Shown one piece after another: positions 3,301 through 44,801 of a stretch of 57,523 bases of DNA. The stretch covers positions 1-57,523 of the IMG/VR virus record IMGVR_UViG_3300032268_001051; one strand, given 5' to 3'. The position numbers were made by a program, and so were the translations under genes. Positions within the stretch are counted from its first letter, which is position 1; every line of letters begins with the position of its first letter. Under the pieces are notes generated by a model that saw only the letters and a list, made by a program, of their open reading frames with translations, was not told the DNA's origin and did not search any database. The DNA is from a virus.

Positions 3301-5624
3301 TCATAGTGAAACCCTTGATTGTTGTCAGTTGCAAATGTTACTTTAATTTTGTTGGTATTATCAAAAAATTTAGACCTCAAATTATAAATGTTAATTCTTT
3401 CACCGATTGGCAAATCAAATGTAAGTCCAAACATATTTTTAACACTATCGCCAGCAGGTCTTCCAAATTTTTGTGAACGAGTTGTATGATATATTTTAGG
3501 ATTTTTAGAACTTCCAGGCACACCTGATAAAGGTTGTGCAAAAGTTGATGCAATAGTATTCAAAACACTATCATAGTTCTCATCTGTAACAGATACAGTA
3601 TTTGTAACTATCGGTTTAGTTGCAAGATAGGCTTCTAATGTAGGAACATATGATTCACTACCTGATACTTGTGTAACTTGAGAAGGTATTGGAGGAACGT
3701 CTTCAGTATTTGTTGTGACAGGTGTAATATTTCCATTACTACATTCACAAGCCTGACAATCAGGATACTGAATCATTGCCAACTTTATGGGGTCAAAGTT
3801 GTATGATGTGAGTTTACCAAAATTTTTAATCAATGCTCTTGTAAGAAATCCATAAAAACCTAATCTTAAAAGGATAACTCCAGCAGTTATAGCCATATTC
3901 CATGTCAAAGGATTCGCCGCTGCGTAAATCGCAAAATTATATGCTTCTATAAGCGTTTGAACAACAGCTTTAGCCGCAAACCCGATTAGTATACCAATCA
4001 CAACCACCGCAAACTTATTATATAACCATGCAACGAAATGATACAAAATCAATAAAGGAAGCCCAATTATCTGAATAACTTGGAATATTATTGCAAATAA
4101 GAAGTAAATGAAATCAAAGTTTCTAAACCCTTCATTGACAGGGAATTTGTTGACTGAGTCCGCACACTCGTTACTATCAATTTCTTTAATTCCAATAAAC
4201 TTACCTCTACCCCCACTTTTATATTGGTCAATTAAACCTGATACCGTATAAACTCTATTGAAATCAAACTGATAGAAAGTATCTTGACAATCAATCATCT
4301 CATTCAACTTTTTTATTCTTTGAGTTGAATTGAACCCTTTGGTGTAACCCGACCAATCTAATCCAAAATAATAGGAACTTCCTAGTTGATTATTTCCTCC
4401 TGTAAGGTTAGGGTCTGAGTTTGAATTAACCCAACCATATTCTCTTATATTTGGAACCAAATAATAAGGTCTTCTTGTTTGTTCAGATAACTGATTAGAT
4501 TGCTGCCATTTTATTTTAAACCTATATTTCGCCTTTGTTGGAATACCGATTGTAGGGTCATTAGACAAAACCCTTTCTCCAAATTCATTTGTAACAATAT
4601 AATCCAAGTTCATTGGAAGTTCTGCCAACCATGAGCCGTTACCATCGATTACATTTCCGTTTTGTTCTAACTTAAATTCCTCTAAAATTGGGTTACCATT
4701 GGAGTCTATTTGTATGGTTTGTCTTATAGCTAAAATTTGACCAGGTCCGGCTTGTAGTTGACATAGATTCCCAAAATTATCTCTAACTTTTCCACCCAAT
4801 CCATCTCTACCCCCTTTTATTCTAAAAGTATCTGGTGTGGAATAAATTGAACCCATGAAAACTGAGGTCGGTTGAATATCTACGTTTGCGTCATCTCTTA
4901 AATCAAAATCTAATCTGTTGATGGCTATTTGACAAATTGCAGGTTCTCCCCAAAGAGGTGATATTTCAATTTGTTTATTAATTGAAATAATCTGTGGTAG
5001 GGAATTCAAGTCTGTCGATATCTTGAAAGTATCACCAGCAACTTGAGCTTCCGTGGCTAAACCGATTCTAATTAAATCTTGTGGTGTCAAAGAAAACTCT
5101 CCGATATCTGATAGGTCTACATCCATTAAGATATTTTGAATACCTAATGGAACCCCCATAATCATATAATCTCCACTCTCATTTGTCTTTGCAGTAAATT
5201 TGTAGTATTTGTCGTAGATGTCTACAACAGTTGTCGCAGTCAAAGCATCTATTCTTGAAGGTAATGTCCCTGTTGCTGCGTGTTTGGAATATGATTTCTC
5301 ATATGGAAGAAGATTGTATCTATAACCATCTTCATTTCTATCATTAACTGACTTATAAGGATAAATTGAAGTAATGATTGGATTGGATTGGTCTACAACC
5401 TCAATTGGAATAAAGACCGCAACCCTTGCATTAGGAACACCTAACCCATTATTAGCTGTAACTCTTCCAACAAGAACACCATAATCAGAGCAAGCTCTGA
5501 CATAAATGTCCTCCTGTTGTAACTTGAGAGACAAAATCTCGAGAAATTCGAACTCTTGGTCTATTTGAACGTTTATCGTCTTGTTAACACCGAGTTCGGT
5601 CCTAATCCTATACGATTGACCCAT
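327..5624 (-). CDS. Giant baseplate-associated structural protein with central membrane-type segments
   Basis: The 1765-residue product is not assigned to a named family. Residues about 40-170 look like a carboxypeptidase-regulatory/transthyretin-like beta domain (a GRVTANNGLGVPNARV stretch, then an ESGDYMIMGVPLG-type turn). Residues about 505-600 hold roughly three long hydrophobic segments with few charges, unusual for a tail protein, followed by a CQACEC cysteine cluster near residue 622. The rest is Asn/Ser/Thr-rich and beta-like. It lies directly downstream of the gp6 and gp25 wedge genes and overlaps the next structural gene, so a baseplate or tail-tip role is inferred. The start is preceded by a CTATTTATAA motif 12 nt upstream and has no Shine-Dalgarno sequence. 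Confidence 0.7.
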   Translation of the reverse strand: MGQSYRIRTELGVNKTINVQIDQEFEFLEILSLKLQQEDIYVRACSDYGVLVGRVTANNGLGVPNARVAVFIPIEVVDQSNPIITSIYPYKSVNDRNEDGYRYNLLPYEKSYSKHAATGTLPSRIDALTATTVVDIYDKYYKFTAKTNESGDYMIMGVPLGIQNILMDVDLSDIGEFSLTPQDLIRIGLATEAQVAGDTFKISTDLNSLPQIISINKQIEISPLWGEPAICQIAINRLDFDLRDDANVDIQPTSVFMGSIYSTPDTFRIKGGRDGLGGKVRDNFGNLCQLQAGPGQILAIRQTIQIDSNGNPILEEFKLEQNGNVIDGNGSWLAELPMNLDYIVTNEFGERVLSNDPTIGIPTKAKYRFKIKWQQSNQLSEQTRRPYYLVPNIREYGWVNSNSDPNLTGGNNQLGSSYYFGLDWSGYTKGFNSTQRIKKLNEMIDCQDTFYQFDFNRVYTVSGLIDQYKSGGRGKFIGIKEIDSNECADSVNKFPVNEGFRNFDFIYFLFAIIFQVIQIIGLPLLILYHFVAWLYNKFAVVVIGILIGFAAKAVVQTLIEAYNFAIYAAANPLTWNMAITAGVILLRLGFYGFLTRALIKNFGKLTSYNFDPIKLAMIQYPDCQACECSNGNITPVTTNTEDVPPIPSQVTQVSGSESYVPTLEAYLATKPIVTNTVSVTDENYDSVLNTIASTFAQPLSGVPGSSKNPKIYHTTRSQKFGRPAGDSVKNMFGLTFDLPIGERINIYNLRSKFFDNTNKIKVTFATDNNQGFHYDNTLTVLTSGDYTPGDLITFVNPALSQDPNYRWTGTTKGGKLISGLTGKVPTGFIPITVNYATSQTSDASTNYTLPTGFTPTCVTSVTVNVTEAGTVSYLNCYGDRIILASSVSAYTISDVDCIDLSSLGGTAIYTITGYGDECRGYDYPMDIEYYQVLTAITVTKTMINNSPVYSLPGLATTNSNGLTSNSSFWNQLIQPSTIITFDECRNGYFGTNPTNSRTNIWYEKLNATYLNEFETQKVLILQRGVDPYSPQYVNKYGIGKILGHPNEDDVVITASTRVNVPIQKLPAGSTTTVQQHNVQSNIFYQSNFFQPINPPVSTAGLTFSAFTTPLVGFYGALDSNNSSITALGNSYYSNNYIDVTPNGGVISKTSNMFTQLTDAAPYPPGFGVGSTETRYNNSDDLSGGAILDGNYGFTNNDLFIFRPCNAASYTRYDTITEQLYYSPSLLPIFSANPLSITTSLTVMRTDRLPSSDYADNGFNWNGSVSLLQQNLGFQVYNLTTGDSVDGVVFSQGAETITADIEGQYAQGNVLASLNDCDRMVGLTCYSGDGTNFGIELGCEGVDAIDNGCYVMVRKPLTDLFNGKDFKTFAEWGFRYRFFYALCRGVLAQSFTNNWVNGSLFMFPIQVDRYFNSQNKPEPPVFPKKLVYFDSDTNNFYFRSSPYVTTSAANPFIGRPTTDDVSPINTRNLLFPTTIVNLGMKDSFYDEITFEPSTASYVMSNLNSTSYSDTSDIVNLFVISRITDEKFLQQLIPLGNNSLNQLFNRYGTGLSTLPRQRIDADLAQMMSINSEFGVIPFSPEFYPSNGNSNDPVKVIGTPGNPTMGIFFSSTTFNLQDKDYISPGIINFRPDPNQTAVTYEFGIKSQQVPFYQWSLRQGGVSNIFGSERNNWATTISDITEYPYQALSRRRVATPNYYYGNNTSYDIFQRGYIFSVTNTSTPQNMNYDTFTMSQSSRFLVGAPYHFYFGLIKGETALDKFKTKYGANE

Positions 5625-5636
5625 TGAGATGTTTAG

Positions 5637-5646
5637 TTATAAATAG
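5637..5646 (-). promoter_or_regulatory. TATTTATA promoter-like motif before the 1765-residue gene
   Basis: CTATTTATAA reads toward the ATG at 5624. The same core recurs upstream of many genes in the window on both strands, so it is inferred to be the phage promoter core. No other signal is evident in this 87-nt gap. Confidence 0.5.
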
Positions 5647-5711
5647 TTAATGTGAATTTTTTTGGGAACACACATTCAAATTATAACTCAATAATGAAAT
5701 AAATAAACTTG

Positions 5712-7550
5712 TTAAGAGAATGTAACTGTTTGGAAATTCTTAACCGATACTCTAATGTCTTTATTTGGGTATCTGATTTGATATACCTGATTTGGTTGGG
5801 CGAAAATAGTGTCGTCAACTGGTCCGATAGCCTTTGTTTCAGCATTTGAATATTCCATAGATGTTTCAGCAGATGAGTATTGTCCTCCAACCTCATTGAA
5901 TACATCAACACTTGTAACTGTCAATACTCCATTAGAATCTTGTATGATACTCTTAAGTTCCGATAGATACACATTCTGACCAAGTTGTCTTATTTGTGGA
6001 TTGAAATAAGATGAAACTTTATCAATTACATCAGATATAACCTGACCTGAATTCTGAGCAGAATCTAAAACAATAGAGACATCAACACTCAAATCTATAA
6101 CTTCAGCACTTAATATTGAAATATAATCGTTCATCATTCTATAGTTAGAAAGATAATTTGCAATATTTTGTCTCAAAGTGTTAGAAACAATACTTGTAAG
6201 TTTTCCTGAAGTATCATAAGATAATATTTGAATCAAAATTTTATTATCATTTTCTGTGATTGATACTTTTGCAGGTGCTCCATATTGTGAAGGCATATTT
6301 CTCAAGATTGATTCATAATCTTGAACAGTAACGGCTCTTTTTTGTGCTGCAAAGTTGAATGATACATAATTTCTTATCTCTTCAAGTGAAGGAACACCAG
6401 CCCCACCAATTGCAGCAGTAACGTTGTTACATCTTAATGAATTAACAACAGCTGAGTTGGTTGACTCCGAAGGACCATTAACAAAGAAGTTTACGGTTCC
6501 TACCTGATTGATAATATTAGTTCCTAAGTTTGTTGCCAAACCACCACCAACTCTATACTGAACAAATAGTGTTGAGTTCGGTATCAATGCAGAACCTAAA
6601 GATAAATTGTTTGAATATTTTTGAAGGTCTAATGTTGCACCAACTGTAGTGAATTGGTCTAAGGCATCTTGAGCGGTATTTGTTCCACCACCAAAAGTCA
6701 TTTTTTTGAATCCTTCAGGTGTAAATTCTGTGATGAATCTGTTTTGTGTCTGAATATATCTACCAACTTTAATACCAGGTTGGTCAGAAACTTTAGTTGG
6801 GTCTTCGATGAATACTCTGTCTTCTGCTAAAGCATCAACTTCATACCATCTGTTTTCTATTCCAATAAATTCAGCTGTAGTTGGAATGTTAGTATATTGT
6901 GTTCCGTTCTTTAGAAGAACACTTGTTATACCCAAAACATTTTTCTCAGGTAAAAACAATTCAAAGAATGGCTTAACATCGTTAGGTGTAATAACTCTCT
7001 TGAATACTTTGGTAATACCGTTAACAACAACTTCTCTTTTAGTTATTGTATAATTTACAAGAACCCCGTTAGCATTGAAGTTAGGTATTTTTAATCTGTT
7101 AGGAAACCCTTCTGAGTTATATGGTGATGTAAAATCAATGTCGTTAACGTTTTCAAAAACAATACCCGCACCAACAACTTGTGAACCTCTTAACAAAGTT
7201 CCCAAATATCTTTCATCTTCTTTATCACCGAAAGCCGGAACTGTTATTGAAAAATCTACTAAAGCAACTGATGGTCTTTGACCTGGTATCTTTAAACCAT
7301 ATGTTCTGGCAATGTTATAAATTGAAGACTTTTGTTGTGCATATTGAAGAACAGTTTCCTGTATACTTCTATCAATTTGATAATTTAGGTTATCTGAAAT
7401 AGCGGCATTTAAGTCTAAGAATACTGAGAATACAGATGCATCGTTAAAATCTTGAATTAATTCAGGATAATACGTTCTAACATAATTGATAAGTTCAGCT
7501 CTTACACCTTGATAATCTCTTGTAGTATATGATATTTTACGATTTGCCAT
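5712..7550 (-). CDS. Baseplate wedge subunit, T4 gp6-like (baseplate J family)
   Basis: The 612-residue protein is close in length to T4 gp6 (660). Its N-terminus (KISYTTRDYQGVRAELINYV, then YPELIQDFNDASVFSVFLDL) has the typical opening of gp6/baseplate-J proteins, including the LNYQIDRSIQE helix. In T4, gp6 dimers form the ring linking baseplate wedges. The C-terminal half has the usual alternating beta and helical pattern with a YESILRNMPSQYGAPAKV stretch typical of J-type proteins. It follows gp25 with only a 5-nt gap, matching the paired gp25-gp6 order of contractile phages. An ATG start is used. Confidence 0.92.
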   Translation of the reverse strand: MANRKISYTTRDYQGVRAELINYVRTYYPELIQDFNDASVFSVFLDLNAAISDNLNYQIDRSIQETVLQYAQQKSSIYNIARTYGLKIPGQRPSVALVDFSITVPAFGDKEDERYLGTLLRGSQVVGAGIVFENVNDIDFTSPYNSEGFPNRLKIPNFNANGVLVNYTITKREVVVNGITKVFKRVITPNDVKPFFELFLPEKNVLGITSVLLKNGTQYTNIPTTAEFIGIENRWYEVDALAEDRVFIEDPTKVSDQPGIKVGRYIQTQNRFITEFTPEGFKKMTFGGGTNTAQDALDQFTTVGATLDLQKYSNNLSLGSALIPNSTLFVQYRVGGGLATNLGTNIINQVGTVNFFVNGPSESTNSAVVNSLRCNNVTAAIGGAGVPSLEEIRNYVSFNFAAQKRAVTVQDYESILRNMPSQYGAPAKVSITENDNKILIQILSYDTSGKLTSIVSNTLRQNIANYLSNYRMMNDYISILSAEVIDLSVDVSIVLDSAQNSGQVISDVIDKVSSYFNPQIRQLGQNVYLSELKSIIQDSNGVLTVTSVDVFNEVGGQYSSAETSMEYSNAETKAIGPVDDTIFAQPNQVYQIRYPNKDIRVSVKNFQTVTFS

Positions 7551-33796: not shown

Positions 33797-36700
33797 TTAA
33801 ATATTCTCAAACGAAGCTCCTGTTGGAGTGATGAAGAATTCGATGTCGATGAATTCTAACGCCTTCGTAGGTTTTAAGTAAATCTTACCTGTAAGTGTAT
33901 TTCTATCCAAATCCTCAGGAGTAGATGAAACTGTTACACGGAAATCGTATAAACCTCTATCTCTTCTGATTGAATCTAAGATTGGGTTAACACTGTCTAA
34001 GAATTGTTGTCTAACGATTTGGTCGTTTTGTTCGAACAATAATCTTACAGCCACCGCTGAAATCAACTTACGAGCTTGTAACAACAATCTTCTAACGTTT
34101 AATCTGTTAAGAGCGGTATCAGCAACTTGTAAAGTTTTGTTACCCCAAATTACAGTTCCTACATCAGAGAAAGTTGCGATTGGATTGATTCTACCTTGAT
34201 ATAAAGTATCTCTATCTTCTTGAGTTAGTTTAACTCTCGCTTTAACTGAATTTACAAGACCTCTTGTGTAACCCGCTGATGCGAACCAAGGGAATGCGAT
34301 GTTATCAGTTAATGCTAAGTTTCTACAAACTTCACCTGTTGCAGGTAGATAGATTTGTGTATTATTAACAGTGTCTCTTACAAGTATCCAAGGATAGTAA
34401 GTCGCTGTGTAGTTAGAATCGATTCCTGTGTTATCAAGAGCATCTACAGCTTCTTGTGGATAAACAATTAATTGAGGGTCAGTAGCATCTGGTGAGAACA
34501 TATCATAGTCAGGAGTCGTTGCGATATACACAGAATCCGCTCTTTGAAATTGAACCATGTCGATTGCTGATTCAACTAAGTTTGAGTTATCTATATAGTT
34601 AATTGATGCGGTTGCGAACACGTTAATATTTGTAGATTCAGGATTTGCAAAAGTTAAAATACCAAGTAAGTAAGCATAGTAGTCAGTGTTAGCAAAATCA
34701 CTTCTATTATTCTCAACCACTATTCTCTTAAAGATACCATCACCAGTTGCTGTTGGATATCTTTGGTCAGGTGCGAAACCTGCCATGAAACCTGAAGCAC
34801 CTAATTGGAATCTATCTTCGTTTGTTCTCCACTCTCTGTAGATATCCCAACCATCAAATCCACCAGCAAAACAACATGTGTATTTTCTAGCGTAAATAAA
34901 ATAATAAGGGTTTTCTTGAGAATCAGGGTCGTTTCTGAATTCAGCAACACCACACTCGAAAGCTGTTTGACCACTTGTGTCATATATGTTACCAATTGTC
35001 ACAACGGTTGCACCTGAGTCCATATGGAAACCTTTTGAAAGATAATTCCAAGGAATAGAGTCAGTTGCTTGTGCCCAATCACCAACAGGGTTTTGTTGAC
35101 CTTTGTATTGTAAGAACGAATCATCAATACCGTATTGTGTTGCAAAACCTAAATAAGTTCTTCTAACAACATCACCAGGAGATTCAACCGCGTTAGAGCC
35201 ACCTGAAGTAGTTCCAAACGGAGGATTATAAATTACTTCACCAGGGAAGTTATATTTTGTTTTGAATACAATGTAAGGTGAAGGATTAGAAGCTGAATCA
35301 TACTCTCTTTGTGTGTATCCATTGAATCCACAAGGAAGAGCATCGATAGGAGCACCGTCCGCCATTTCAACCATAATGTATCTTGAAACTAAAGCGTATT
35401 CACCATTTGAAGTTCCAATTCTAACACCGATAAAGTTGTTAGTTGCTGGGTCCATAGTGCAATTCGTGTATTTCTCAAGAACTACAGGATTTTGGTCTGT
35501 GTCAAAGAAATCTCTAACCAAAATATCAAATGTCATATTATTATATGAAAGGTTTGCAATTGAAACCTTAACTTCTGTATTTGCTGCATCACCATCAGAA
35601 ATAGATATAAATCTGAAAAGATTATAAACTCTATTACCTCTTAGTTCAGAAACAAAGTAAGGAGTCTTAGGTGACTGATATCTTTGTAATTTCCAAGCTA
35701 TTGTCGTTGTTGAGTTTGTAACTCTTGCTTCAGGTAAAGCAACTAATTCACAATTCAAACCTCTAATGTAACTTTGATTGAATGCGTAGTTTAAAGAACC
35801 TGGATAAATTTCTTCAATAAACAATGGAACTTCATTTCTCGATTTTCCAAAGTTATCAATACCAAACACTTTTGTAAGATATTTTGAAGAAGACGCTAAC
35901 AACGATGTCTCGAAAGAGAACGTGTCTGCATCTTTTGTAACACCAGAAACTAAGAAAGTTCCAAAAGGATTCTTAGTAACTCCTGAGTATTGGTCAGAAC
36001 AAACTAACTGAACATCAGTTAAACCTGTAACCTCATAAACAGGTCCGTGATTAGGACTTGAAGCACTATTAGTGAAAAGAGAAATACCTCTTGAACGTAA
36101 AGTTGCTACAACCATATTGTTATAGTCAAGGAAAGCAGTTCCAGAAAAAGTATAACTATTACCTGATACTGTTCCACTATAAACAGTGCTACCTAAAGAA
36201 ACTAAATTAGATACTACATAATCAAATGAATATCCTGAATAGTTGTTTCCACTAGGGATATCAAATGTTGCGTAGAACCAAGGGTCGTTATCCCCAGATG
36301 ATAAATCGTTATTATCTAAATTAGTTGAATCACTTCCAAACGCATTAACAATTGTTGTATAACCTGATAAATTCGCATAATCAGTTCCAGGAATTGAACC
36401 GTAAATAACTGCAGTTGTTGCAGATAAAGAAGGAGTATCAATTATATTACCAACGTATGTGTTAAAACCTTCAGCATATGTTGAAGTTGAACCGTTTGAT
36501 AATGTAAATTGAGTGTTTAAATCTAAAGCCACGGGTGCTGGTAATGCACCTCCAACGAATGTAATTGTATTTCCTGAAGTAGAACCCGTGAAAGACGCAC
36601 TCCAAGGAGCTGTTGCAATCGCCGAGTTGATACCGATAGTTGTCGGGTCAGGGTTAGCTGTTACTCTTATACTCCAAGATGGACCTGCGTCATAACCAGA

Positions 36701-37006
36701 TAAACCAAGAATTCTTGTAAAGAACATTTGGTTAGACTGTTGGAGATAAGATTTGGCAATATACGCCGCTTCATATTTAGGGATTTGTGTATTCACGAAC
36801 TTCTCTGGAACTGTTCCACCAAAGTAAGCTTGGAATTCATCATAGTTGGTAATAAATACAGGTTCAAATGCTGGTCCTTTGATGGATTCTCCAACAAGAC
36901 CGAGTGTAGTTACACCGACACTTTGAGCCACGAAAGATAAGTCAGTTTCAGATGTGTATACACCAGGTGAAACGAATACTTTTTGATTTGCTTGTGCTGT
37001 TGCCAT
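33797..37006 (-). CDS. Tail sheath protein, T4 gp18-like, oversized
   Basis: The 1069-residue protein has the sheath hallmarks at both ends. The N-terminus KVFVSPGVYTSETDLSFVAQ leads to VGVTTLGLVGESIKGPAFEP. The C-terminal core includes WGNKTLQVADTALNRLNVRR and the DIEFFITPTGASFE ending. The contracting core of gp18-type sheaths is normally about 400-660 residues, so about 400 extra residues lie between about 110 and 600, rich in Ser/Thr/Tyr/Asn beta segments, likely outward-facing domains. It drives tail contraction. A terminator follows, and the motif CTAATATTTATC lies about 35 nt upstream. Confidence 0.9.
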   Translation of the reverse strand: MATAQANQKVFVSPGVYTSETDLSFVAQSVGVTTLGLVGESIKGPAFEPVFITNYDEFQAYFGGTVPEKFVNTQIPKYEAAYIAKSYLQQSNQMFFTRILGLSGYDAGPSWSIRVTANPDPTTIGINSAIATAPWSASFTGSTSGNTITFVGGALPAPVALDLNTQFTLSNGSTSTYAEGFNTYVGNIIDTPSLSATTAVIYGSIPGTDYANLSGYTTIVNAFGSDSTNLDNNDLSSGDNDPWFYATFDIPSGNNYSGYSFDYVVSNLVSLGSTVYSGTVSGNSYTFSGTAFLDYNNMVVATLRSRGISLFTNSASSPNHGPVYEVTGLTDVQLVCSDQYSGVTKNPFGTFLVSGVTKDADTFSFETSLLASSSKYLTKVFGIDNFGKSRNEVPLFIEEIYPGSLNYAFNQSYIRGLNCELVALPEARVTNSTTTIAWKLQRYQSPKTPYFVSELRGNRVYNLFRFISISDGDAANTEVKVSIANLSYNNMTFDILVRDFFDTDQNPVVLEKYTNCTMDPATNNFIGVRIGTSNGEYALVSRYIMVEMADGAPIDALPCGFNGYTQREYDSASNPSPYIVFKTKYNFPGEVIYNPPFGTTSGGSNAVESPGDVVRRTYLGFATQYGIDDSFLQYKGQQNPVGDWAQATDSIPWNYLSKGFHMDSGATVVTIGNIYDTSGQTAFECGVAEFRNDPDSQENPYYFIYARKYTCCFAGGFDGWDIYREWRTNEDRFQLGASGFMAGFAPDQRYPTATGDGIFKRIVVENNRSDFANTDYYAYLLGILTFANPESTNINVFATASINYIDNSNLVESAIDMVQFQRADSVYIATTPDYDMFSPDATDPQLIVYPQEAVDALDNTGIDSNYTATYYPWILVRDTVNNTQIYLPATGEVCRNLALTDNIAFPWFASAGYTRGLVNSVKARVKLTQEDRDTLYQGRINPIATFSDVGTVIWGNKTLQVADTALNRLNVRRLLLQARKLISAVAVRLLFEQNDQIVRQQFLDSVNPILDSIRRDRGLYDFRVTVSSTPEDLDRNTLTGKIYLKPTKALEFIDIEFFITPTGASFENI

Positions 37007-37039
37007 TATTAAATTATTCTAATGCAGATTTATTTTAAT

Positions 37040-37051
37040 GATAAATATTAG
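37040..37051 (-). promoter_or_regulatory. TATTTATA promoter-like motif before the tail sheath
   Basis: CTAATATTTATC reads toward the sheath from about 35 nt upstream of the ATG. The 119-nt gap holds divergent motifs, one for the sheath and one for the plus-strand small gene. Confidence 0.5.
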
Positions 37052-37083
37052 TATCTGAATGAAAAAACTTGACTTTCTGATAT

Positions 37084-37095
37084 CTATTTATAAAC
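37084..37095 (+). promoter_or_regulatory. TATTTATA promoter-like motif before the small plus-strand gene
   Basis: CTATTTATAAAC lies about 30 nt upstream of the ATG at 37126 and faces away from the sheath motif at 37040. The motif's occurrence in the correct orientation for an isolated plus-strand gene supports its promoter role. Confidence 0.55.
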
Positions 37096-37125
37096 GGTGA
37101 GAATTAATTCTGCCTTTTTTCTACC

Positions 37126-37287
37126 ATGAAAACGAAGAAAGAAATCAAAAACATAAAAATATCCCCTGAATCACATGAAATCCTAAAAAAATACTGTGAT
37201 AAGAGAGGAATTAAAATTTATAAGTTTTTAGAAAATTTGATAATGGAAAAGTGTATTGAAAAGAAAGATATCTACGGAGAGAACTAA
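37126..37287 (+). CDS. Small ribbon-helix-helix-like protein, possible regulator
   Basis: The 53-residue basic protein (MKTKKEIKNIKISPESHEIL at the N-terminus) has a beta strand IKNIKISPE followed by two helices (SHEILKKYCDKRGIKIYK; FLENLIMEKCIEK). This is the layout of Arc/CopG-type ribbon-helix-helix DNA-binding proteins. It is the only plus-strand gene between the sheath and gp15-like genes. It has its own promoter-like motif, and its TAA overlaps the TAG of the converging gene by 3 nt. A transcriptional regulator role is inferred from the fold pattern. Confidence 0.65.
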   Translation: MKTKKEIKNIKISPESHEILKKYCDKRGIKIYKFLENLIMEKCIEKKDIYGEN

Positions 37288-38324
37288 ACTAACTTGTTTT
37301 CAAAAAGAATATTACCCTCCAACGTGTTATCGTTTTTGATAACCTCAATTCTCAAGATATCATCCAAAGTTACTTGAATAACATTTAAGTCCGTTCCATA
37401 ATAATTGTTGTTGATGTAAACATCATACGAATTAATATTATTTGAAGAAATAAAAGTCATGTCAACGGTATAATCGACAAGACCGCTAAGAACTGTGTTA
37501 CCCGAAACAAATAAAAAGTTTTGACCGAACTCATCAGGATTCTCAGGATATATGTCTCTCTTTTTCTTTTTGATTTCAGATTGAACTTCGAATACTTGAG
37601 AAACTCTAGCAATTGCTGGTTTAACTTCAAACTCTTCTTCGTCAATCAAATAACCCAACATCGTAAAATCATAACTTTGAACATAATACTTTCTTGAATC
37701 CAAATTCATTTGAGACTCATCAGCTACGTTATTTAATATTATCGGAACATATTGACCTTTAATAAAAGTATATGCTTGTCTTGATGAAAACTTCTGCATA
37801 ACAATTTTATTGAGTTGGTTCAACTCTCTCATTCTATTACAGATAAACTTAAGACTGTAATTAATATCAACAGGAACTGGTTGTGGTATTGTGTATATGT
37901 CCATACCTTGTTCATTACCATTCCAAGTTGGAACTGAGGCATAATAGAATTGTTTCCTGTTAGGAATTGTATATTGTAATGCGGGATTAGTTCCGTATTT
38001 AACGTCAGGGCTTCTTACAACTGTGATAAAAGGTGGTGAAGGGTTAAAATCCAAATCAACAAATAATGCAGTTTCAACATACTGAGCCCAGTTTTGAGTT
38101 GTTATGATTGTATCAACCATAGGAACAACTTTACCTGCTGTCACAACCTCTAAATCAGCTTTAACAAAATCTAACATACCTCTATCCAAATCAGCATGTA
38201 ATACAGATTTAGGAAGATATGTCCCATCCTTATTAATAAATTCCAACAACTGTTCTCTCCTTGCAGACAATGTCTTCTGAGGAACTAATGGTAATGTTGG
38301 TTTGACTTGTTTAGGTAATGGCAT
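37284..38324 (-). CDS. Tail sheath stabiliser / completion protein, gp15-like
   Basis: The 346-residue protein shows the pattern of gp15-type tail terminators: a PVDINYSLKFICNRMRELNQ helix, a short NKIVMQKFSSRQAY segment, and YVQSYDFTMLGYLIDEEEFE. In T4, gp15 (272 residues) caps the finished tail and joins it to the neck. The extra C-terminal about 80 residues are beta-like. It lies next to the sheath, with connector-type genes upstream. It ends in TAG, overlapping the stop of the converging small gene. The assignment is by pattern and position, so alternatives such as another neck protein remain. Confidence 0.6.
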   Translation of the reverse strand: MPLPKQVKPTLPLVPQKTLSARREQLLEFINKDGTYLPKSVLHADLDRGMLDFVKADLEVVTAGKVVPMVDTIITTQNWAQYVETALFVDLDFNPSPPFITVVRSPDVKYGTNPALQYTIPNRKQFYYASVPTWNGNEQGMDIYTIPQPVPVDINYSLKFICNRMRELNQLNKIVMQKFSSRQAYTFIKGQYVPIILNNVADESQMNLDSRKYYVQSYDFTMLGYLIDEEEFEVKPAIARVSQVFEVQSEIKKKKRDIYPENPDEFGQNFLFVSGNTVLSGLVDYTVDMTFISSNNINSYDVYINNNYYGTDLNVIQVTLDDILRIEVIKNDNTLEGNILFENKLV

Positions 38325-38331
38325 TCTTTAA

Positions 38332-39027
38332 TTATTTTGTCATTAATCCAACTTGTTTTAACGCACCCCAATGAGATGACGAGTTAGATGAACTAGCACC
38401 ACTTACAACACCTGCACCTCTACCTCCTGACTTTCCCACAAACACGTTTGACGAAGGAACCCCACTGCTCACAGCCGCTCTAACATTGTTTTTAGTAACA
38501 GGTCCCACGGCATATGGTTCAATTATAAAAAGTTTATTTTTGTTTACATATGGACTAACCGCCAACTCATTTGCTTTCTTACAACCAGCACTAAATAAGT
38601 AGACAGGAATCTTTGGGTTCTTTTCCAAGAAGTCTTCAATATCTCTTGTTGATGTGCTATATCTGAAACCTTTTATTTTCTTATCGTTTCCCAATCCTGA
38701 ATTTAATAATTTTACTTGTGAATCGATGTCCAAATCTCCATCTCTATAATCTAACCCACCAACCAATACAGCATCAAATGAACCAGTTGATTTGACAGGG
38801 GATTTAACAGCAGTCTTACTTTTCGAACTTAATTCTTTACCAAATTCTTTTTGATATGCCTTTCTTGTCAACGGACCTGCTTTACCATCAACTCCGTCAC
38901 CCTTTGGACCGAAATCACCTAAGTCATATTTCTTAACCAAGATTTTTTGAATCTTTTCAACTTCAGGGTCGTATTCAATCTCATTGATTAAAAACTTAAG
39001 TTGGTTTTCAGAAATTAAGTATTCCAT
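38332..39027 (-). CDS. Peptidoglycan-binding-domain protein with unknown alpha/beta domain
   Basis: The 231-residue protein opens MEYLISENQLKFLINE, then has a peptidoglycan-binding domain 1-type segment at about residues 20-65 (VEKIQKILVKKYDLGDFG, then DGKAGPLTRKAYQKEFG). A Ser/Lys linker leads to an alpha/beta domain (about 82-200) with VLVGGLDY and VYLFSAGCKKANELA, where the FSAGC turn could hold a nucleophile. The tail is Gly/Ser-rich. It might be a cell-wall-acting enzyme or lysin, or a packaged protein, given the [IL]SE N-terminus. No classical endolysin domain is otherwise seen in the window. Confidence 0.65.
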   Translation of the reverse strand: MEYLISENQLKFLINEIEYDPEVEKIQKILVKKYDLGDFGPKGDGVDGKAGPLTRKAYQKEFGKELSSKSKTAVKSPVKSTGSFDAVLVGGLDYRDGDLDIDSQVKLLNSGLGNDKKIKGFRYSTSTRDIEDFLEKNPKIPVYLFSAGCKKANELAVSPYVNKNKLFIIEPYAVGPVTKNNVRAAVSSGVPSSNVFVGKSGGRGAGVVSGASSSNSSSHWGALKQVGLMTK

Positions 39028-39057
39028 TTTATTAATTATTAAATTATATATATTTTA

Positions 39058-39570
39058 TTATATCCCTCTGAATTCATTTTCACTAACATAAGTGGCAACC
39101 ACAGTTCTGTAGAATGGTTTATATCCACCATATGTATGTTTATTATCAGACCTTACATATCCATCATCACTTACAACATAATATCTAACCCTGTCCTCAC
39201 TCTCATAGTAACCAAAGTAATCTCCTTGGAATATTTCAACCTGTAAATCTTCCAAAGTCTTTTGATAAATTGAGAATTTCATATTGCCAGGTTCTTGCAA
39301 TTCAATTTTTGAATTACCGTAATTCTTACCCGTAGGTGCCATAACCTGAACATAACCTTTGAGTTCAACAGGTGCCAAGAATTGAATTCCATCTTCCAAA
39401 ACCTCACCATAAACATCATCAGTTTTGGTTTTATATCTATCAATACGATAAAGTATAACGGTAAAGTTCATGTCACCAATTAACCACTCCTCACCCATAC
39501 CGATATCTAAAGCATAATCTTCACGACCAAAGAACTTACCTAATCTTGTTATAGGGACTAAATTTTCCAT
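39058..39570 (-). CDS. Neck/connector-type structural protein
   Basis: The 170-residue protein starts MENLVPITRLGKFFGREDYA. An upstream in-frame ATG at 39624 would run into the divergent SET gene. The ATG at 39570 is directly preceded by GTATTTATCAAT, so it is chosen. The core (NFTVILYRIDRYKTKTDDVY, then GIQFLAPVELKGYVQV) is beta-rich and resembles small connector proteins of T4-like phages. No enzyme motif is seen. Its position near gp15-like and gp13-like genes suggests a head-tail joining role. Confidence in the exact identity is low. Confidence 0.6.
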   Translation of the reverse strand: MENLVPITRLGKFFGREDYALDIGMGEEWLIGDMNFTVILYRIDRYKTKTDDVYGEVLEDGIQFLAPVELKGYVQVMAPTGKNYGNSKIELQEPGNMKFSIYQKTLEDLQVEIFQGDYFGYYESEDRVRYYVVSDDGYVRSDNKHTYGGYKPFYRTVVATYVSENEFRGI

Positions 39571-39605
39571 ATTGATAAATACTTTATTGTTGTTTATATT
39601 TACAC
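39571..39605. promoter_or_regulatory. Divergent promoter region between connector and SET genes
   Basis: This 38-nt gap holds GTATTTATCAAT on the minus strand (39571-39582), touching the connector ATG, and TTTATATTTACACC on the plus strand (39592-39605), 3 nt before the SET ATG. Two back-to-back motif copies explain the strand switch. Confidence 0.55.
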
Positions 39606-39608
39606 CAA

Positions 39609-39974
39609 ATGGAAATAAGACCATCTACAAAAATAATTTTAAAGAAAAGTCCAATTCACGGTTTGGGTGTTTTTTCAAGTCAAAAAATATCTAAAGGTGA
39701 ACCAATAGAAGAGTGCCCATTCTTAGCATTCCCACAAAACAAAAACGAACAAGTTCCCGCTTTTTCAAACTATACTTTTTGTTTCCCAAGAGGTGAAATG
39801 TGGACAACACATGCATTAGTTACGGGTTACGGTTCTTACTATAATCATTCTGAGAACGCCAATGTTGATTGGTATACAGAAAATGAATTAGGTCTTTTTG
39901 TTTTCAAAGCACTTAGAGACATTGAAAAAGATGAAGAACTTTTTATAAACTACGCAAATGGTGTCGTTTTTTGA
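39609..39974 (+). CDS. Minimal SET-domain lysine methyltransferase
   Basis: The 121-residue protein is a stand-alone SET domain. HGLGVFSSQKISKGEPI (residues 17-33) is the N-SET beta unit, GSYYNHSENANVDW contains the NHS cofactor motif (79-81), and FKALRDIEKDEELFINYA carries the ELFINYA catalytic-tyrosine motif (110-116). There are no pre-SET or post-SET zinc cysteines. Its size equals that of the chlorella-virus vSET enzyme (119 residues). It should transfer methyl groups from S-adenosylmethionine to protein lysine. The substrate is unknown; host or phage DNA-binding proteins are candidates. It is coupled to the SNF2 helicase by a TGATG overlap. Confidence 0.85.
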   Translation: MEIRPSTKIILKKSPIHGLGVFSSQKISKGEPIEECPFLAFPQNKNEQVPAFSNYTFCFPRGEMWTTHALVTGYGSYYNHSENANVDWYTENELGLFVFKALRDIEKDEELFINYANGVVF

Positions 39975-41734
39975 TGAATGATAATACCATATCAATGGAA
40001 TCAAAAGCACTTTCCATTTTGGAAACATATAATGGTGCAAACAATTATATTCTTGAATTAAAAAGAAAATCAGAAATAAATCGTAAGTTCTATCCAACAA
40101 GAAGTCAGGCAGAATACATTATTAACAATCATGACAAACAACCCAAGGTCGCAAAGAAATGGGTTATCCTCGATGCATACTTCGCACAGAAATTAGCCGA
40201 CGATAGATTGTTAACTGAAATTCCAGAAAAGGTTTGGGTTGAAAAATTACTTGCTGATAAAGAAAAGGCATTCCACATTTGGGGTAAGATAAAAGAATCA
40301 CAAGAGCTTCATGATTTTTGGTTACCAAAAGCCGCGATAATCAAAGACAATACTGTAAAAGATGTTGTGGTAGATTATGAAAAATATTCTAAACGACCTT
40401 TGTTGTCACATCAGAAAGAAGCAATCCAAAAACTTCTCGAAAATAAAAAATTCATTTTAGCAGACGATATGGGTCTTGGTAAAACAACCTCAAGTATCGT
40501 CGCAGCACTTGAGTCGGGAGCCAAAAAAATCCTAATCATTTGTCCCGCAACTTTGAAAATAAACTGGAAAAGAGAAATTGAGAATTATTCTGATAGGTCA
40601 ATCTTCATTGCTGAAGGAAAACAATTTTCAACAGAGCACGACTTTGTTATTATAAACTACGACATTATAAAAAATTTTCATGACGATAAGAAAAAAGATG
40701 AGTCGCAAATTCTTGGAGCCAATTTTGATTTGGTGGTTATTGATGAAGCACACTATATCAAAAACGCTCAAGCCCAAAGAACAAAATTAATCAATGACTT
40801 TGTAAAAAAAATAGACCGTCTGTGGTTGCTCACAGGAACACCATTGACATCACGCCCAATTGATTATTATAATTTATTAAGTTTGATAGACTCTCCAGTT
40901 GCCAAAAATTGGATGGCTTATGTTATAAGATACTGTCAAGGATACCAATTCAAAGTTGGCCCAAGAAAAGTGTGGAATGTAATGGGTGCATCCAATTTGG
41001 AAGAGTTAAGAGATAGAACCTCAGGTCTGACCTTAAGGAGATTGAAAGAAGATGTATTAGACTTACCTGATAAAATTATAACTCCAATCTATTTGAGATT
41101 AAAATCAAAAGAGTATGAAGAGGTTATGGGAGAATACTACAATTGGTATGAAAAAAATCCTGAAGAATCTAAATCTTTGACGGTCCAATTCACAAAACTT
41201 ACAAAAGTAAGACAGATAATTGCCAACGAAAAAATTACACAAACAATAGAGTTAGCCGAAAACATTTTAGAACAAGATAAGAAGGTTATTATCTTTTGTA
41301 ATTTTACAGAATCATTAAATAAAATTGTTGAACACTTTGGAAAATCTGCGGTTAAGGTTGACGGTTCCATGTCAAAAACAGAAAGACAACATAGTGTTGA
41401 TGAGTTCCAAGACAACCCCAAAGTAAAAGTTTTTGTTGGAAACATTAAGGCCGCTGGTGTTGGTTTAACATTAACCTCCGCTGAAGCAGTAATTATGAAT
41501 GACCTATCGTTCTTACCATCCGACCACTCCCAATCCGAAGATAGAGCGTATAGATATGGTCAAAAAAATAACGTTCTCGTTTATTATCCTATTTTCGAAA
41601 ATACAATCGAAGGAATTATCTACGATATCCTCAACGCAAAAAAACAAGTTATCTCAACTGTAATGGGTGATAACGTAAATTCAGCTGATTATGCTGAAGA
41701 AATTTTAAGAAGAATCAACGAGTTAAGACATTAA
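39974..41734 (+). CDS. SNF2-family DNA helicase/translocase, SMARCAL1-like
   Basis: The 586-residue protein has all SNF2 ATPase motifs: DDMGLGKTTSS (Walker A, about residues 163-173), VVIDEAHYIKN (DEAH, about 255), LLTGTPLTSRP, LRRLKEDVLDLPDK and RAYRYGQKNN near residue 525. The motif set and spacing resemble SMARCAL1-type annealing helicases. In T4-like phages such an enzyme may replace UvsW in reversing forks and processing recombination intermediates. The ATG at 39974 overlaps the SET stop by 1 nt and is preferred to a TTG one codon earlier. The N-terminal 120 residues are unassigned. Confidence 0.88.
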   Translation: MNDNTISMESKALSILETYNGANNYILELKRKSEINRKFYPTRSQAEYIINNHDKQPKVAKKWVILDAYFAQKLADDRLLTEIPEKVWVEKLLADKEKAFHIWGKIKESQELHDFWLPKAAIIKDNTVKDVVVDYEKYSKRPLLSHQKEAIQKLLENKKFILADDMGLGKTTSSIVAALESGAKKILIICPATLKINWKREIENYSDRSIFIAEGKQFSTEHDFVIINYDIIKNFHDDKKKDESQILGANFDLVVIDEAHYIKNAQAQRTKLINDFVKKIDRLWLLTGTPLTSRPIDYYNLLSLIDSPVAKNWMAYVIRYCQGYQFKVGPRKVWNVMGASNLEELRDRTSGLTLRRLKEDVLDLPDKIITPIYLRLKSKEYEEVMGEYYNWYEKNPEESKSLTVQFTKLTKVRQIIANEKITQTIELAENILEQDKKVIIFCNFTESLNKIVEHFGKSAVKVDGSMSKTERQHSVDEFQDNPKVKVFVGNIKAAGVGLTLTSAEAVIMNDLSFLPSDHSQSEDRAYRYGQKNNVLVYYPIFENTIEGIIYDILNAKKQVISTVMGDNVNSADYAEEILRRINELRH

Positions 41735-41745
41735 ACGCACTTACA

Positions 41746-41759
41746 GATTATTTATTTAG
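41746..41759 (+). promoter_or_regulatory. TATTTATA promoter-like motif before the SOD-fusion gene
   Basis: GATTATTTATTTAG lies 19 nt upstream of the ATG at 41779 in a 44-nt gap after the SNF2 gene. It is a weaker match to the recurring motif. Confidence 0.4.
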
Positions 41760-41778
41760 AAATAGATAATCAAATATC

Positions 41779-43317
41779 ATGAAAAAGATTGAAGAAGAAA
41801 TTCAACTGTTAGAAAAACAAATACAAGAAAACCACATACAAGAAGAAAAAAAACAGTTGATTAACGAAATGAAAAAAATTGGAATAGAAAAACTACCTTA
41901 TTCCTACTCAGCCCTCAAACAATTTATCGATGCAGAAACAATGGACTTCCATTATAACAAGCATTACAAAGGGTATGTAGATAAATTAAACACGGCCTTA
42001 TCAAAGAAAAAATACGGTGATTTAGAATTAGAACAAATCATTAAAACTATTAGCCGTTTTGATAAATCAGTTAGAAACAATGCGGGAGGAGCATTCAACC
42101 ACGCTTTGTTTTGGAACATGTTAACACCTAACCCAAAAAAGTTAACAGGCGAACTTTATAAAAAAATTAACAAAGAGTTTGGTTCATTCACAACTTTCAA
42201 AAAGAAATTTGAAACTGTTGCTAAAGATAGATTTGGTTCTGGTTGGGTTTGGTTAGTTCTCACTGCAAAAAACGGTTTGAAGATTATGTCCACACCGAAC
42301 CAAGACAATCCATTAATGAATGTTATTGAAGGCGGTGGATTTCCACTTTTAGGTTTGGACCTATGGGAACATGCTTATTATCTGAAGTATAGAAACAAAA
42401 GAGACGAATACATTTCAAATTTTTGGAAGGTTGTCAATTGGGATTTTATATCAAAGTTGTATGAGATGAAAACAGAAACAAAACTTTTGGAATCAGAAGG
42501 ATTTTCAAAAATTATTTCTGAATCGGAAGAGCCTAAATTTTGTTCTCCTAAAGAAGTTGCCTTCTACAATGAATTAATTAACAACAGAAAAATCAAAGAT
42601 GTTTATCAGACTGGTATAACACACATCTTGAAAAAAGTATTCAGTCAATTTTGGGTTGACGCCACTTCAAAAGAAATGTCAGGATTCTACGGAATTGAAA
42701 CAAAAGATGGTAGGTCAATGTTAAATAACCTTAACACAAACTTCAACTCATTTTGTCTTATTGTTAAATCTGTAAACAATCAAATAGAATCTTTAGGACA
42801 ATTAGATAAGATGTTTGATTTTTCAAACCCCGAAAATAGAAACCTTAATGAGGTAAAAAGATTCTTAAGAGCGTTAGATTATTTTAGAAACGATATTTTC
42901 ACTAAAACAAACAAAGATTTTATTAATATCATTAAAGTTCTAATGGTTCTTTGGAAAAGAGGGCAAAAAAGTGAATTAAGTGCAACAAAGAAAATGGAGT
43001 TGTATTTTGGTAAAGATGTTAAAATAATTCAAGTAGGTGGTCACGGACAGAAAAAAGATGCCTTTAAAGGAATTGACTTAATTGTTAATTTAGATGGTAA
43101 AGAATATACTGCACAGGTAAAACCATATTCTAAAATGTCTTTGATAAAAGATAAGGTAGAATTATTAGATACTGGTAATGTGAAGAAATATGATACTGAT
43201 TGGTTAATCTTTGTAAATCAAAAGACTAACAAGATACTTATATTCAAAAACAACCCACTGACCGATGAGAATCAATATTCATTCAATTTAGATTCTTTGA
43301 TACACGAAATAGAATAA
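41779..43317 (+). CDS. Fe/Mn superoxide dismutase fused to a PD-(D/E)XK nuclease-like domain
   Basis: The 512-residue protein has a complete iron/manganese superoxide dismutase domain at about residues 35-228. All four metal ligands are present: His58 (TMDFHYNKHY), His108 (GGAFNHALFW), Asp194 and His198 (LDLWEHAYYLKY). A charged coiled-coil-like N-terminus (1-35) precedes it. A linker with an IISESE site (245-250) leads to a helical region and a C-terminal domain in which FKGIDLIVNLDGKEYTAQVK (Asp433, Gln446-x-Lys448) matches the PD-(D/E)XK nuclease core. Dismutases are normally about 200 residues and free-standing. The role of the fusion is unknown. Confidence 0.82.
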   Translation: MKKIEEEIQLLEKQIQENHIQEEKKQLINEMKKIGIEKLPYSYSALKQFIDAETMDFHYNKHYKGYVDKLNTALSKKKYGDLELEQIIKTISRFDKSVRNNAGGAFNHALFWNMLTPNPKKLTGELYKKINKEFGSFTTFKKKFETVAKDRFGSGWVWLVLTAKNGLKIMSTPNQDNPLMNVIEGGGFPLLGLDLWEHAYYLKYRNKRDEYISNFWKVVNWDFISKLYEMKTETKLLESEGFSKIISESEEPKFCSPKEVAFYNELINNRKIKDVYQTGITHILKKVFSQFWVDATSKEMSGFYGIETKDGRSMLNNLNTNFNSFCLIVKSVNNQIESLGQLDKMFDFSNPENRNLNEVKRFLRALDYFRNDIFTKTNKDFINIIKVLMVLWKRGQKSELSATKKMELYFGKDVKIIQVGGHGQKKDAFKGIDLIVNLDGKEYTAQVKPYSKMSLIKDKVELLDTGNVKKYDTDWLIFVNQKTNKILIFKNNPLTDENQYSFNLDSLIHEIE

Positions 43318-43322
43318 ACTAA

Positions 43323-43336
43323 GATATATTTATAAG
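43323..43336 (+). promoter_or_regulatory. TATTTATA promoter-like motif before the neck gene
   Basis: GATATATTTATAAG lies 2 nt upstream of the ATG at 43339 in a 21-nt gap. It is a close match to the motif and has the same tight spacing as on the minus strand. Confidence 0.55.
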
Positions 43337-43338
43337 AT

Positions 43339-44466
43339 ATGGCAGTAATTCCAGAACCAGAAAGGTCCAAAATATATACGAGAATTAAACACCTCTTAGG
43401 TGCTCCTCTCAGAAGCGTTGAGCTCGAAGATGAACAAATGGATTCATTAATGGAACTTGCCATTGGTGACTACGAAGAATACATTCTCCAATGGTTAATC
43501 GATAGCCAATGGGTTAACTTGGTGAATTTAAATATGACTGAAAAATCTGTTGCGAGAGCACTTGTAACAAGAACAATGGATTTCGAACAACAATTCGCAT
43601 ACTCATATTCAAAAATTGTTGGACTACAAACAGTAGGACCATGGGTTTTAAAGCAAGATTATTTCATCCTAAGTGCAAACACTCAAAACTACGAAATCCC
43701 TGCTGGTCGTGAGGTTAATGAATTATTATGGTTCAGTAATCAACCGTTTACTGCATTTGGATTAGGTGGTGTCGGTGGATTTGGATTTGGTGGTATAGGT
43801 TTAGGTGCAAGCGAAGCTGGTTATGCACAAATGGGTTATCAAGGTTCCTACTTTATGATGTCAGGATTTGATTACCTCATAAGAATGCAAGAATCAAATA
43901 TTCTTAATAGAATCCTTGGAGGTTCTTTAACATACAGAATTACAGGATTACCTGATGGTAAAAGAAACGTATTCCTTTATAATACCCCTGGTGGAAGATT
44001 CAACTGGAATAACTATAGTATGTATGCGGGTAGAGCCGTTTGGTATTGGTATTATGATGTAGGTTCTGACGATAGGGCAGATTGTTTAAAAGCAAACCCT
44101 GACATTATTAAATTACCAACAGATGTTCCTATTGAAGAGTTAACTTGGGAAGACTTAAACACCCCTGGTCAACAATGGGTTAGAAGATGGTTTACCGCAT
44201 ACTGTAAAGAAACACTAGCAAGGGTTAGAGGGAAATATTCTGGTAATCTAAAAACCCCTGACTCAGAGATAACAATGGACTATCAAAGTTTGTTGACGGA
44301 ATCCAAAGACGAAAAATCAAAACTTATTGAAGAGTTAATTGGTGCTGAAGGATGGTTGACAAGATTAAGACCTGAAAAAGTAATGGAAAGAGAGGCGTTG
44401 ATTGCCGAAAACTTAAATAAACAAATGAAGTTCAGGGCAATGCCGAGACAAATCTACGTAATATAA
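43339..44466 (+). CDS. Neck protein, gp13-like
   Basis: The 375-residue protein opens MAVIPEPERSKIYTRIKHLL and continues LGAPLRSVELEDEQMDSLME, a helical N-terminus like gp13-type neck/head-completion proteins (T4 gp13 has 309 residues). A Gly/Phe-rich insertion (about 145-165, GLGGVGGFGFGGIGLG) breaks the fold. The C-terminal helix region (WVRRWFTAYCKETLARVRGK) is also typical of neck proteins, which in T4 close the filled head and dock the tail. Its stop overlaps the next ATG by 1 nt. The identification rests on pattern and neighbourhood. Confidence 0.65.
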   Translation: MAVIPEPERSKIYTRIKHLLGAPLRSVELEDEQMDSLMELAIGDYEEYILQWLIDSQWVNLVNLNMTEKSVARALVTRTMDFEQQFAYSYSKIVGLQTVGPWVLKQDYFILSANTQNYEIPAGREVNELLWFSNQPFTAFGLGGVGGFGFGGIGLGASEAGYAQMGYQGSYFMMSGFDYLIRMQESNILNRILGGSLTYRITGLPDGKRNVFLYNTPGGRFNWNNYSMYAGRAVWYWYYDVGSDDRADCLKANPDIIKLPTDVPIEELTWEDLNTPGQQWVRRWFTAYCKETLARVRGKYSGNLKTPDSEITMDYQSLLTESKDEKSKLIEELIGAEGWLTRLRPEKVMEREALIAENLNKQMKFRAMPRQIYVI

Positions 44467-44801
44467 TGGCAATAATTAGAACAATACCTTCTCAAAGAAT
44501 TATTAACGGAACAACAATAAAGACTTCCGAAATATCCACTGTTTCTGAAAGGGAATATGTTACCAACGGTGAGGCGTGTATCGTTGTAAGAGGCATTGAT
44601 GAATCAACTATCGTATTAGATTCAAGAACAACAGACCATGTTGTTGTTAAAGCCATGACAAGAACTCTCGTAAAACCCGATATTGGAAGAATTGACGAGG
44701 ATTACGATGAGATTCTTTTAGATAGATACGCTTGTGTTGAGTTCAGATTTGTTGTTAATAACTGGTATATTCTTTCATCAGACGGTCTCAAGAATTCCTA
44801 A
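44466..44801 (+). CDS. Small structural-type protein coupled to the neck gene
   Basis: The 111-residue beta-rich protein (MAIIRTIPSQRIINGTTIKT at the N-terminus) is not recognised. Its ATG overlaps the neck-gene stop (TAATG), and its last 24 nt overlap the end of the converging DNA polymerase gene. A run of T follows its stop but without a clear hairpin. A minor head-tail joining or decoration role is inferred from coupling only. Confidence 0.65.
   Translation: MAIIRTIPSQRIINGTTIKTSEISTVSEREYVTNGEACIVVRGIDESTIVLDSRTTDHVVVKAMTRTLVKPDIGRIDEDYDEILLDRYACVEFRFVVNNWYILSSDGLKNS

Follow-up and report, generated by a model that had tools for sequence, protein, structure and literature searches.

A predicted vSET-like lysine methyltransferase gene at an exchangeable site beside an SNF2 gene in large phages

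Background

The closest described viral enzyme is vSET of Paramecium bursaria chlorella virus 1 (PBCV-1), a packaged SET-domain protein that trimethylates histone H3K27 of its host (PMC7019647; see also PMC3089700). Among prokaryotic relatives, Go1-SET of Methanosarcina mazei methylates the chromosomal protein MC1-alpha in vitro (PMC3980110). vSET-like and prokaryotic SET proteins are a known kind, and phage SET genes are already annotated in databases. Searches of open-access papers for phage SET enzymes turned up annotation-level mentions only (for example ORF62 of Stenotrophomonas phage Ps15), and the papers found contained no experimental work on other tailed-phage SETs. Phage protein-lysine methylation is essentially unstudied, and the SET locus described here provides a defined, swappable gene family with which to probe it.

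Structure of the SET locus

The sequence analysed, here called the window, is the whole 57,523 nt (positions 1 to 57,523) of IMG/VR record IMGVR_UViG_3300032268_001051. It is phage DNA, with tail sheath, baseplate wedge, DnaB and PolB genes identified by Pfam and PHROG matches. The features around its SET gene are as follows.

39058..39570 (listed ORF to 39624), minus strand: conserved neighbour bounding the SET insertion junction (homologue starts at MQKLVPITRLGKFF; synteny)
39609..39974, plus strand: predicted SET-domain protein-lysine methyltransferase gene, subfamily I of the phage clade, 121 aa (Pfam, motifs, AF2, dN/dS)
39972..39976, plus strand: TGATG, the SET stop overlapping the SNF2 start codon (sequence; 33 comparable distinct junctions)
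39974..41734, plus strand: SNF2-family ATPase, 586 aa, core gene of the phage clade (Pfam, PHROG 62, motifs)
41779..43317, plus strand: Fe/Mn superoxide dismutase (SOD) fused to a PD-(D/E)XK-nuclease-like C-terminal domain (Pfam Sod_Fe_N and Sod_Fe_C; weak fold match)
43339..44466, plus strand: head-tail adaptor-like protein (PHROG 211, 43.2 bits)
44466..44801, plus strand: conserved 111-aa ORF closing the plus-strand block (synteny)

SET, SNF2, the SOD fusion, the head-tail adaptor and the 111-aa ORF, for which a PHROG search returned no match, make up a five-gene plus-strand block (39609-44801) that is followed by PolB and lies between minus-strand genes on both sides (33797-39624 and 44778 onward). 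An earlier sequence-only reading had placed SET and SNF2 opposite in orientation to most nearby genes; the strands are as it described, but the two are genes 1 and 2 of the block and not an isolated pair. The overlap it reported is likewise present, the SET TGA stop occupying 39972-39974 and the SNF2 ATG beginning at 39974 within TGATG. With its stop overlapping or directly adjoining the SNF2 start, SET would lead or share the SNF2 transcript and is probably co-expressed with it; the overlap is an expression arrangement and not evidence of a common substrate.

The minus-strand gene upstream probably starts at a Met near 39570 rather than at 39624, because its homologues begin at MQKLVPITRLGKFF. 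Such a start would leave ~39 bp of divergent intergenic DNA before SET, where the listed ORF (39058-39624) instead overlaps the SET start. A promoter-like match (10/12; 39572-39600, plus strand) falls inside this intergenic DNA; matches of this kind were not enriched in the region over shuffled sequence.

The C-terminal domain of the SOD fusion (~255 aa) has invariant G/D/D/Q/K positions, and its AF2 model (pLDDT 81) weakly matches the PD-(D/E)XK enzymes I-Ssp6803I, a homing endonuclease, and Hjc resolvase. A fusion of SOD to such a predicted nuclease-like part is odd for a phage. The sole INPHARED relative of this domain lies in a 735-kb phage (LR756501, locus L264; 6023-6895, minus strand), divergent to a SET gene (6965-7363, plus strand). 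This adjacency may be coincidence, because it is not seen at other SNF2-independent SET loci, among them L266, whose SET is more closely related to that of LR756501. The fusion protein was also considered as the true partner of SET and rejected, given the same absence and the retention of its gene in SET-less phages.

SNF2 itself is a generic phage gene. Its product matches Pfam SNF2-rel_dom (102.6 bits) and Helicase_C (69.6 bits), contains DDMGLGKT, DEAH and SEDRAYRYGQ (Walker A/B and motif VI), belongs with the DNA helicases of PHROG 62 (E 6.6e-116), and has as its nearest solved relative the snf2/rad54-family helicase 1z63. Matches to it occur in 1,982 phage records, Bacteroides and Cellulophaga phages among them; SNF2 is so common in phages that its presence is no sign of chromatin, and the position of SET beside it is not to be read as chromatin biology.

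The SET protein

The 121-aa SET ORF scores 54.9 bits (E 1.4e-14) against Pfam SET (PF00856), above the curated cut-off of 22.4. Its length had been likened to that of vSET, and the resemblance holds: vSET is 119 aa, is the top sequence match in a phmmer search with the window SET (E 1.7e-9), and in PDB structure 3kma is the best match (E 1.2e-9) to the AF2 model (pLDDT 85.3, pTM 0.80), other SET enzymes coming next. That fold search returned 350 PDB matches at E<=0.001, and the top 50 listed are SET/PR-domain proteins or complexes containing them. The protein ends six residues past the catalytic Tyr and lacks a Cys cluster, a pre-SET region and a post-SET region.

Conservation of the NHS and Tyr residues had been named as a test by the sequence-only reading, and it was borne out. 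When sixteen diverged phage SETs (the relatives share 36-70% identity with the window SET) were aligned, the GxGVF, NHS and catalytic-Tyr motifs were kept throughout, and G20, F22, Y78-N79-H80-S81, E110 and Y115 were invariant; Y115 aligns with the Tyr of the vSET ISYGD motif, and in subfamily I the first GxG position is occupied by either N or G. SET is apparently a single-domain vSET-type protein-lysine methyltransferase with intact SAM and catalytic motifs, its activity being predicted from these features.

Pairwise dN/dS ranged from 0.03 to 0.27 for SET as against 0.01 to 0.05 for SNF2, and was well below 1 in SET for every pair with measurable divergence; amino-acid change in SET was usually 2-7 times faster. 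SET is a conserved coding gene under purifying selection that diverges faster than SNF2, and the dN/dS values and Pfam score together rule out a chance ORF.

The junction upstream of SNF2

In IMG/VR, the 80 loci whose SNF2 is closest to that of the window (84-99% identity), in phages of up to ~320 kb, share a common order of sheath, 37284, 39058, (SET), SNF2, SOD fusion, adaptor, 44466 and PolB. SET lies upstream of SNF2 in 37 of the 80 and is absent there in 43, frequencies that come from best matches partly seeded with the window's own SET and are not population estimates, and in which 'absent' means absent at the junction, most IMG/VR contigs being fragments. Conservation of the pair among relatives had been named as a test: the pair does recur, in slightly under half of these loci, and it is missing from the others. 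Where both genes are present, SNF2 starts about -25 to +13 nt from the SET stop in 33 distinct junctions, often through TAATG or ATGA overlaps, and recurrence across so many junctions indicates that the tight spacing is not chance. On a tree of 73 SNF2 proteins the presence of SET needs 8 changes, 5 of them forced by well-supported branches, so that on this tree SET has been gained or lost repeatedly, at least 5-8 times.

SET-less junctions are mostly closed (under ~60 bp). In five SET-less loci the site is filled by another minus-strand ORF of ~112 aa (MKMSQEQIERAINKMINVIK...), which is a second cargo gene, unrelated to SET:

L048 5318-5659, minus strand: ~112-aa ORF at the SET junction
L057 5619-5960, minus strand: ~112-aa ORF at the SET junction
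L084 3956-4297, minus strand: ~112-aa ORF at the SET junction
L097 5618-5953, minus strand: ~112-aa ORF at the SET junction
L100 5623-5958, minus strand: ~112-aa ORF at the SET junction

Both of the diverged SET subfamilies occur at the SNF2 junction, and tandem SETs are found in three loci (L028, L029, L211). In L028 the SNF2 protein is 96% identical to that of the window, but two subfamily-II SETs, which share only 46% and 38% identity with that of the window, stand in place of the subfamily-I gene. These comparisons point to a small cargo site with exchange, at which SET is optional and swappable and not a fixed SNF2 partner. Position beside SNF2 is still the commonest arrangement found (70 distinct SETs, in searches partly seeded with the window SET), and this location may confer some selective benefit.

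SET genes away from SNF2

Scanning with a second alignment, together with an earlier scan, yielded ~18 distinct phage SETs of the same family outside the SNF2 context. Carriers of such SETs include the two phages of loci L345 and L346, in which the SNF2 synteny is intact and SET-less, with 39058 directly upstream of SNF2: G014 (295 kb; SNF2 72%), whose single SET is about 217 kb away, and G017 (130 kb; SNF2 70%), whose single SET is 12.5 kb away. Three relatives of 317-321 kb each have exactly one SET and no HU-family gene.

Seven SETs (L262, L269, L271, L273, L296, L301, L304), two of them from the window's phage clade, adjoin a common gene cluster in which an NAD-dependent epimerase (L296) and a hexapeptide transferase (L269) are encoded. 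These are perhaps glycan-type modification genes, and their position raises a possible link of protein methylation with surface-sugar decoration. Three other SETs (L261, L307, L316) lie within a common operon of small genes, and Stenotrophomonas phage Moby has a more distant SET amid many short hypothetical ORFs. Two large viral contigs (L016 and L017, one of 436 kb) contain two tandem, distant SET-like genes at 5336-5980 and 5965-6516 (plus strand), the upstream copy being without the NHS motif, which suggests a non-catalytic or diverged paralogue.

Origin and host

A genome scan found more than 400 cellular loci encoding SET relatives. The best 80 of these, which share 32-44% identity with the phage SET, include members of the Saprospiraceae, other Bacteroidota, CPR bacteria, Planctomycetota and Methanosarcina; a related SNF2 occurred within the fetched flanks of none of the 80. 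In a joint tree the 50 phage rows of this SET family group as a single clade (SH-aLRT 98) that divides into two subfamilies, and deeper branching is not resolved by the 130 columns available. The window's own clade consists of very large phages, up to ~320 kb, which we take to be of freshwater origin. Its PolB is closest to those of Salinibacter and cyanobacterial phages (~25% identity); in our view the hosts are probably Bacteroidota-like, a placement on which the PolB and SNF2 relatives bear indirectly. A bacterial host, as we infer here, would lack H3.

Role of the phage SET protein

SET and SNF2 had been read as a chromatin-type pairing, and part of that description holds: a minimal vSET-like enzyme with conserved catalytic residues abuts SNF2 and recurs in many phages. 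We nevertheless consider it distinctly improbable that the two form a functional module, with a nucleoid protein, a phage DNA-binding protein or SNF2 as the SET substrate and the nucleoprotein so modified as the target of the SNF2 motor. The overlapping or abutting genes kept across the 33 junctions are consistent with such a module, as is the methylation of a DNA-packing protein by the archaeal relative Go1-SET (PMC3980110), but as a unit the pair failed the test of co-occurrence, with SET missing from more than half of the closest SNF2 loci, ~18 SETs found without an adjacent SNF2, and no related SNF2 in the fetched flanks of the best 80 cellular loci. Repeated gain and loss count against it too, as do the two phages of the clade whose SET is distant from SNF2. 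A look for HU-like genes found none in 13 of the clade's phage records, and no lysine in SNF2 or its neighbours convincingly tracked SET presence (largest frequency difference in SNF2 0.90 v 0.81, in an underpowered comparison of 5-8 independent contrasts). Patchy presence and alternative locations rule out SET as an obligate SNF2 partner; a role linked to SNF2 may yet hold in phages having both genes. The same patchiness, and replacement by other ORFs, would suit a neutral or vestigial passenger that does little and is spread by recombination at a permissive junction, but with dN/dS well below 1 in all measurable pairs and catalytic residues invariant even in highly diverged copies we regard this as most improbable.

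The reading towards which we lean is that SET is an exchangeable accessory lysine methyltransferase, predicted to be active, co-expressed with SNF2 and likelier aimed at a host (or virion) protein. The gene would vary in location from one jumbo phage to another and at the window site would share a transcript with the core SNF2 gene, as the overlap suggests; its product would methylate lysines of a host protein, or of a small number of them, acting in the nucleoid, translation, transcription or defence, and this would favour infection, much as with vSET and its algal host. A host protein is the substrate with about even chances on our assessment, a virion or other phage protein being next most likely. 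For the latter, SET might methylate lysines of tail, baseplate or other surface proteins at assembly, a decoration alongside glycans, which would accord with a locus among structural genes (tail sheath, baseplate wedge, head-tail adaptor) and with the seven SETs beside the epimerase/hexapeptide-transferase cluster. SET is co-oriented with SNF2, however, and not with the sheath or baseplate genes, and the sheath and adaptor proteins occur, at a similar degree of conservation, whether or not a phage carries SET, so that a virion-directed modifier seems rather unlikely. A host-directed role for an accessory methyltransferase fits better than a housekeeping partnership with SNF2, because SET is patchily distributed, changes faster, has paralogous subfamilies and occurs in tandem copies. 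More tentatively, and less likely than not, the jumbo-phage clade may use an exchangeable vSET-like set, comprising two subfamilies and tandem copies, for methylating proteins of the bacterial host, such as those of the nucleoid or of defence; if true, this would be a bacterial protein-methylation counterpart of viral chromatin reprogramming. Closely related natural phages with and without SET allow one to ask what the gene gives a phage.

Comparison with known systems

vSET (A612L of PBCV-1) is, like the phage SET, a single viral SET domain of ~120 aa with the same motifs; its host is eukaryotic and has histones, and its substrate is H3K27 (PMC7019647), whereas the phage SET gene adjoins SNF2, and the two proteins are only 28% identical in structural alignment. 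Stand-alone bacterial and archaeal SETs such as Go1-SET belong to the same small SET family (32-44% identity among the best 80 cellular matches), but the phage SETs form their own clade, lie in phage operons and are patchy in distribution. Other tailed-phage SETs, at 30-43% identity, are those of Stenotrophomonas phages Moby, Marzo and Ps15, of LR756501 and of uncultured Caudovirales in BFVD, several already annotated; unlike the window SET, those of Moby and LR756501 are not beside SNF2. Among phage SNF2 helicases (PHROG 62) the window SNF2 is an ordinary member, and it is the preceding SET gene, frequent in this clade and not seen elsewhere here, that sets the locus apart.
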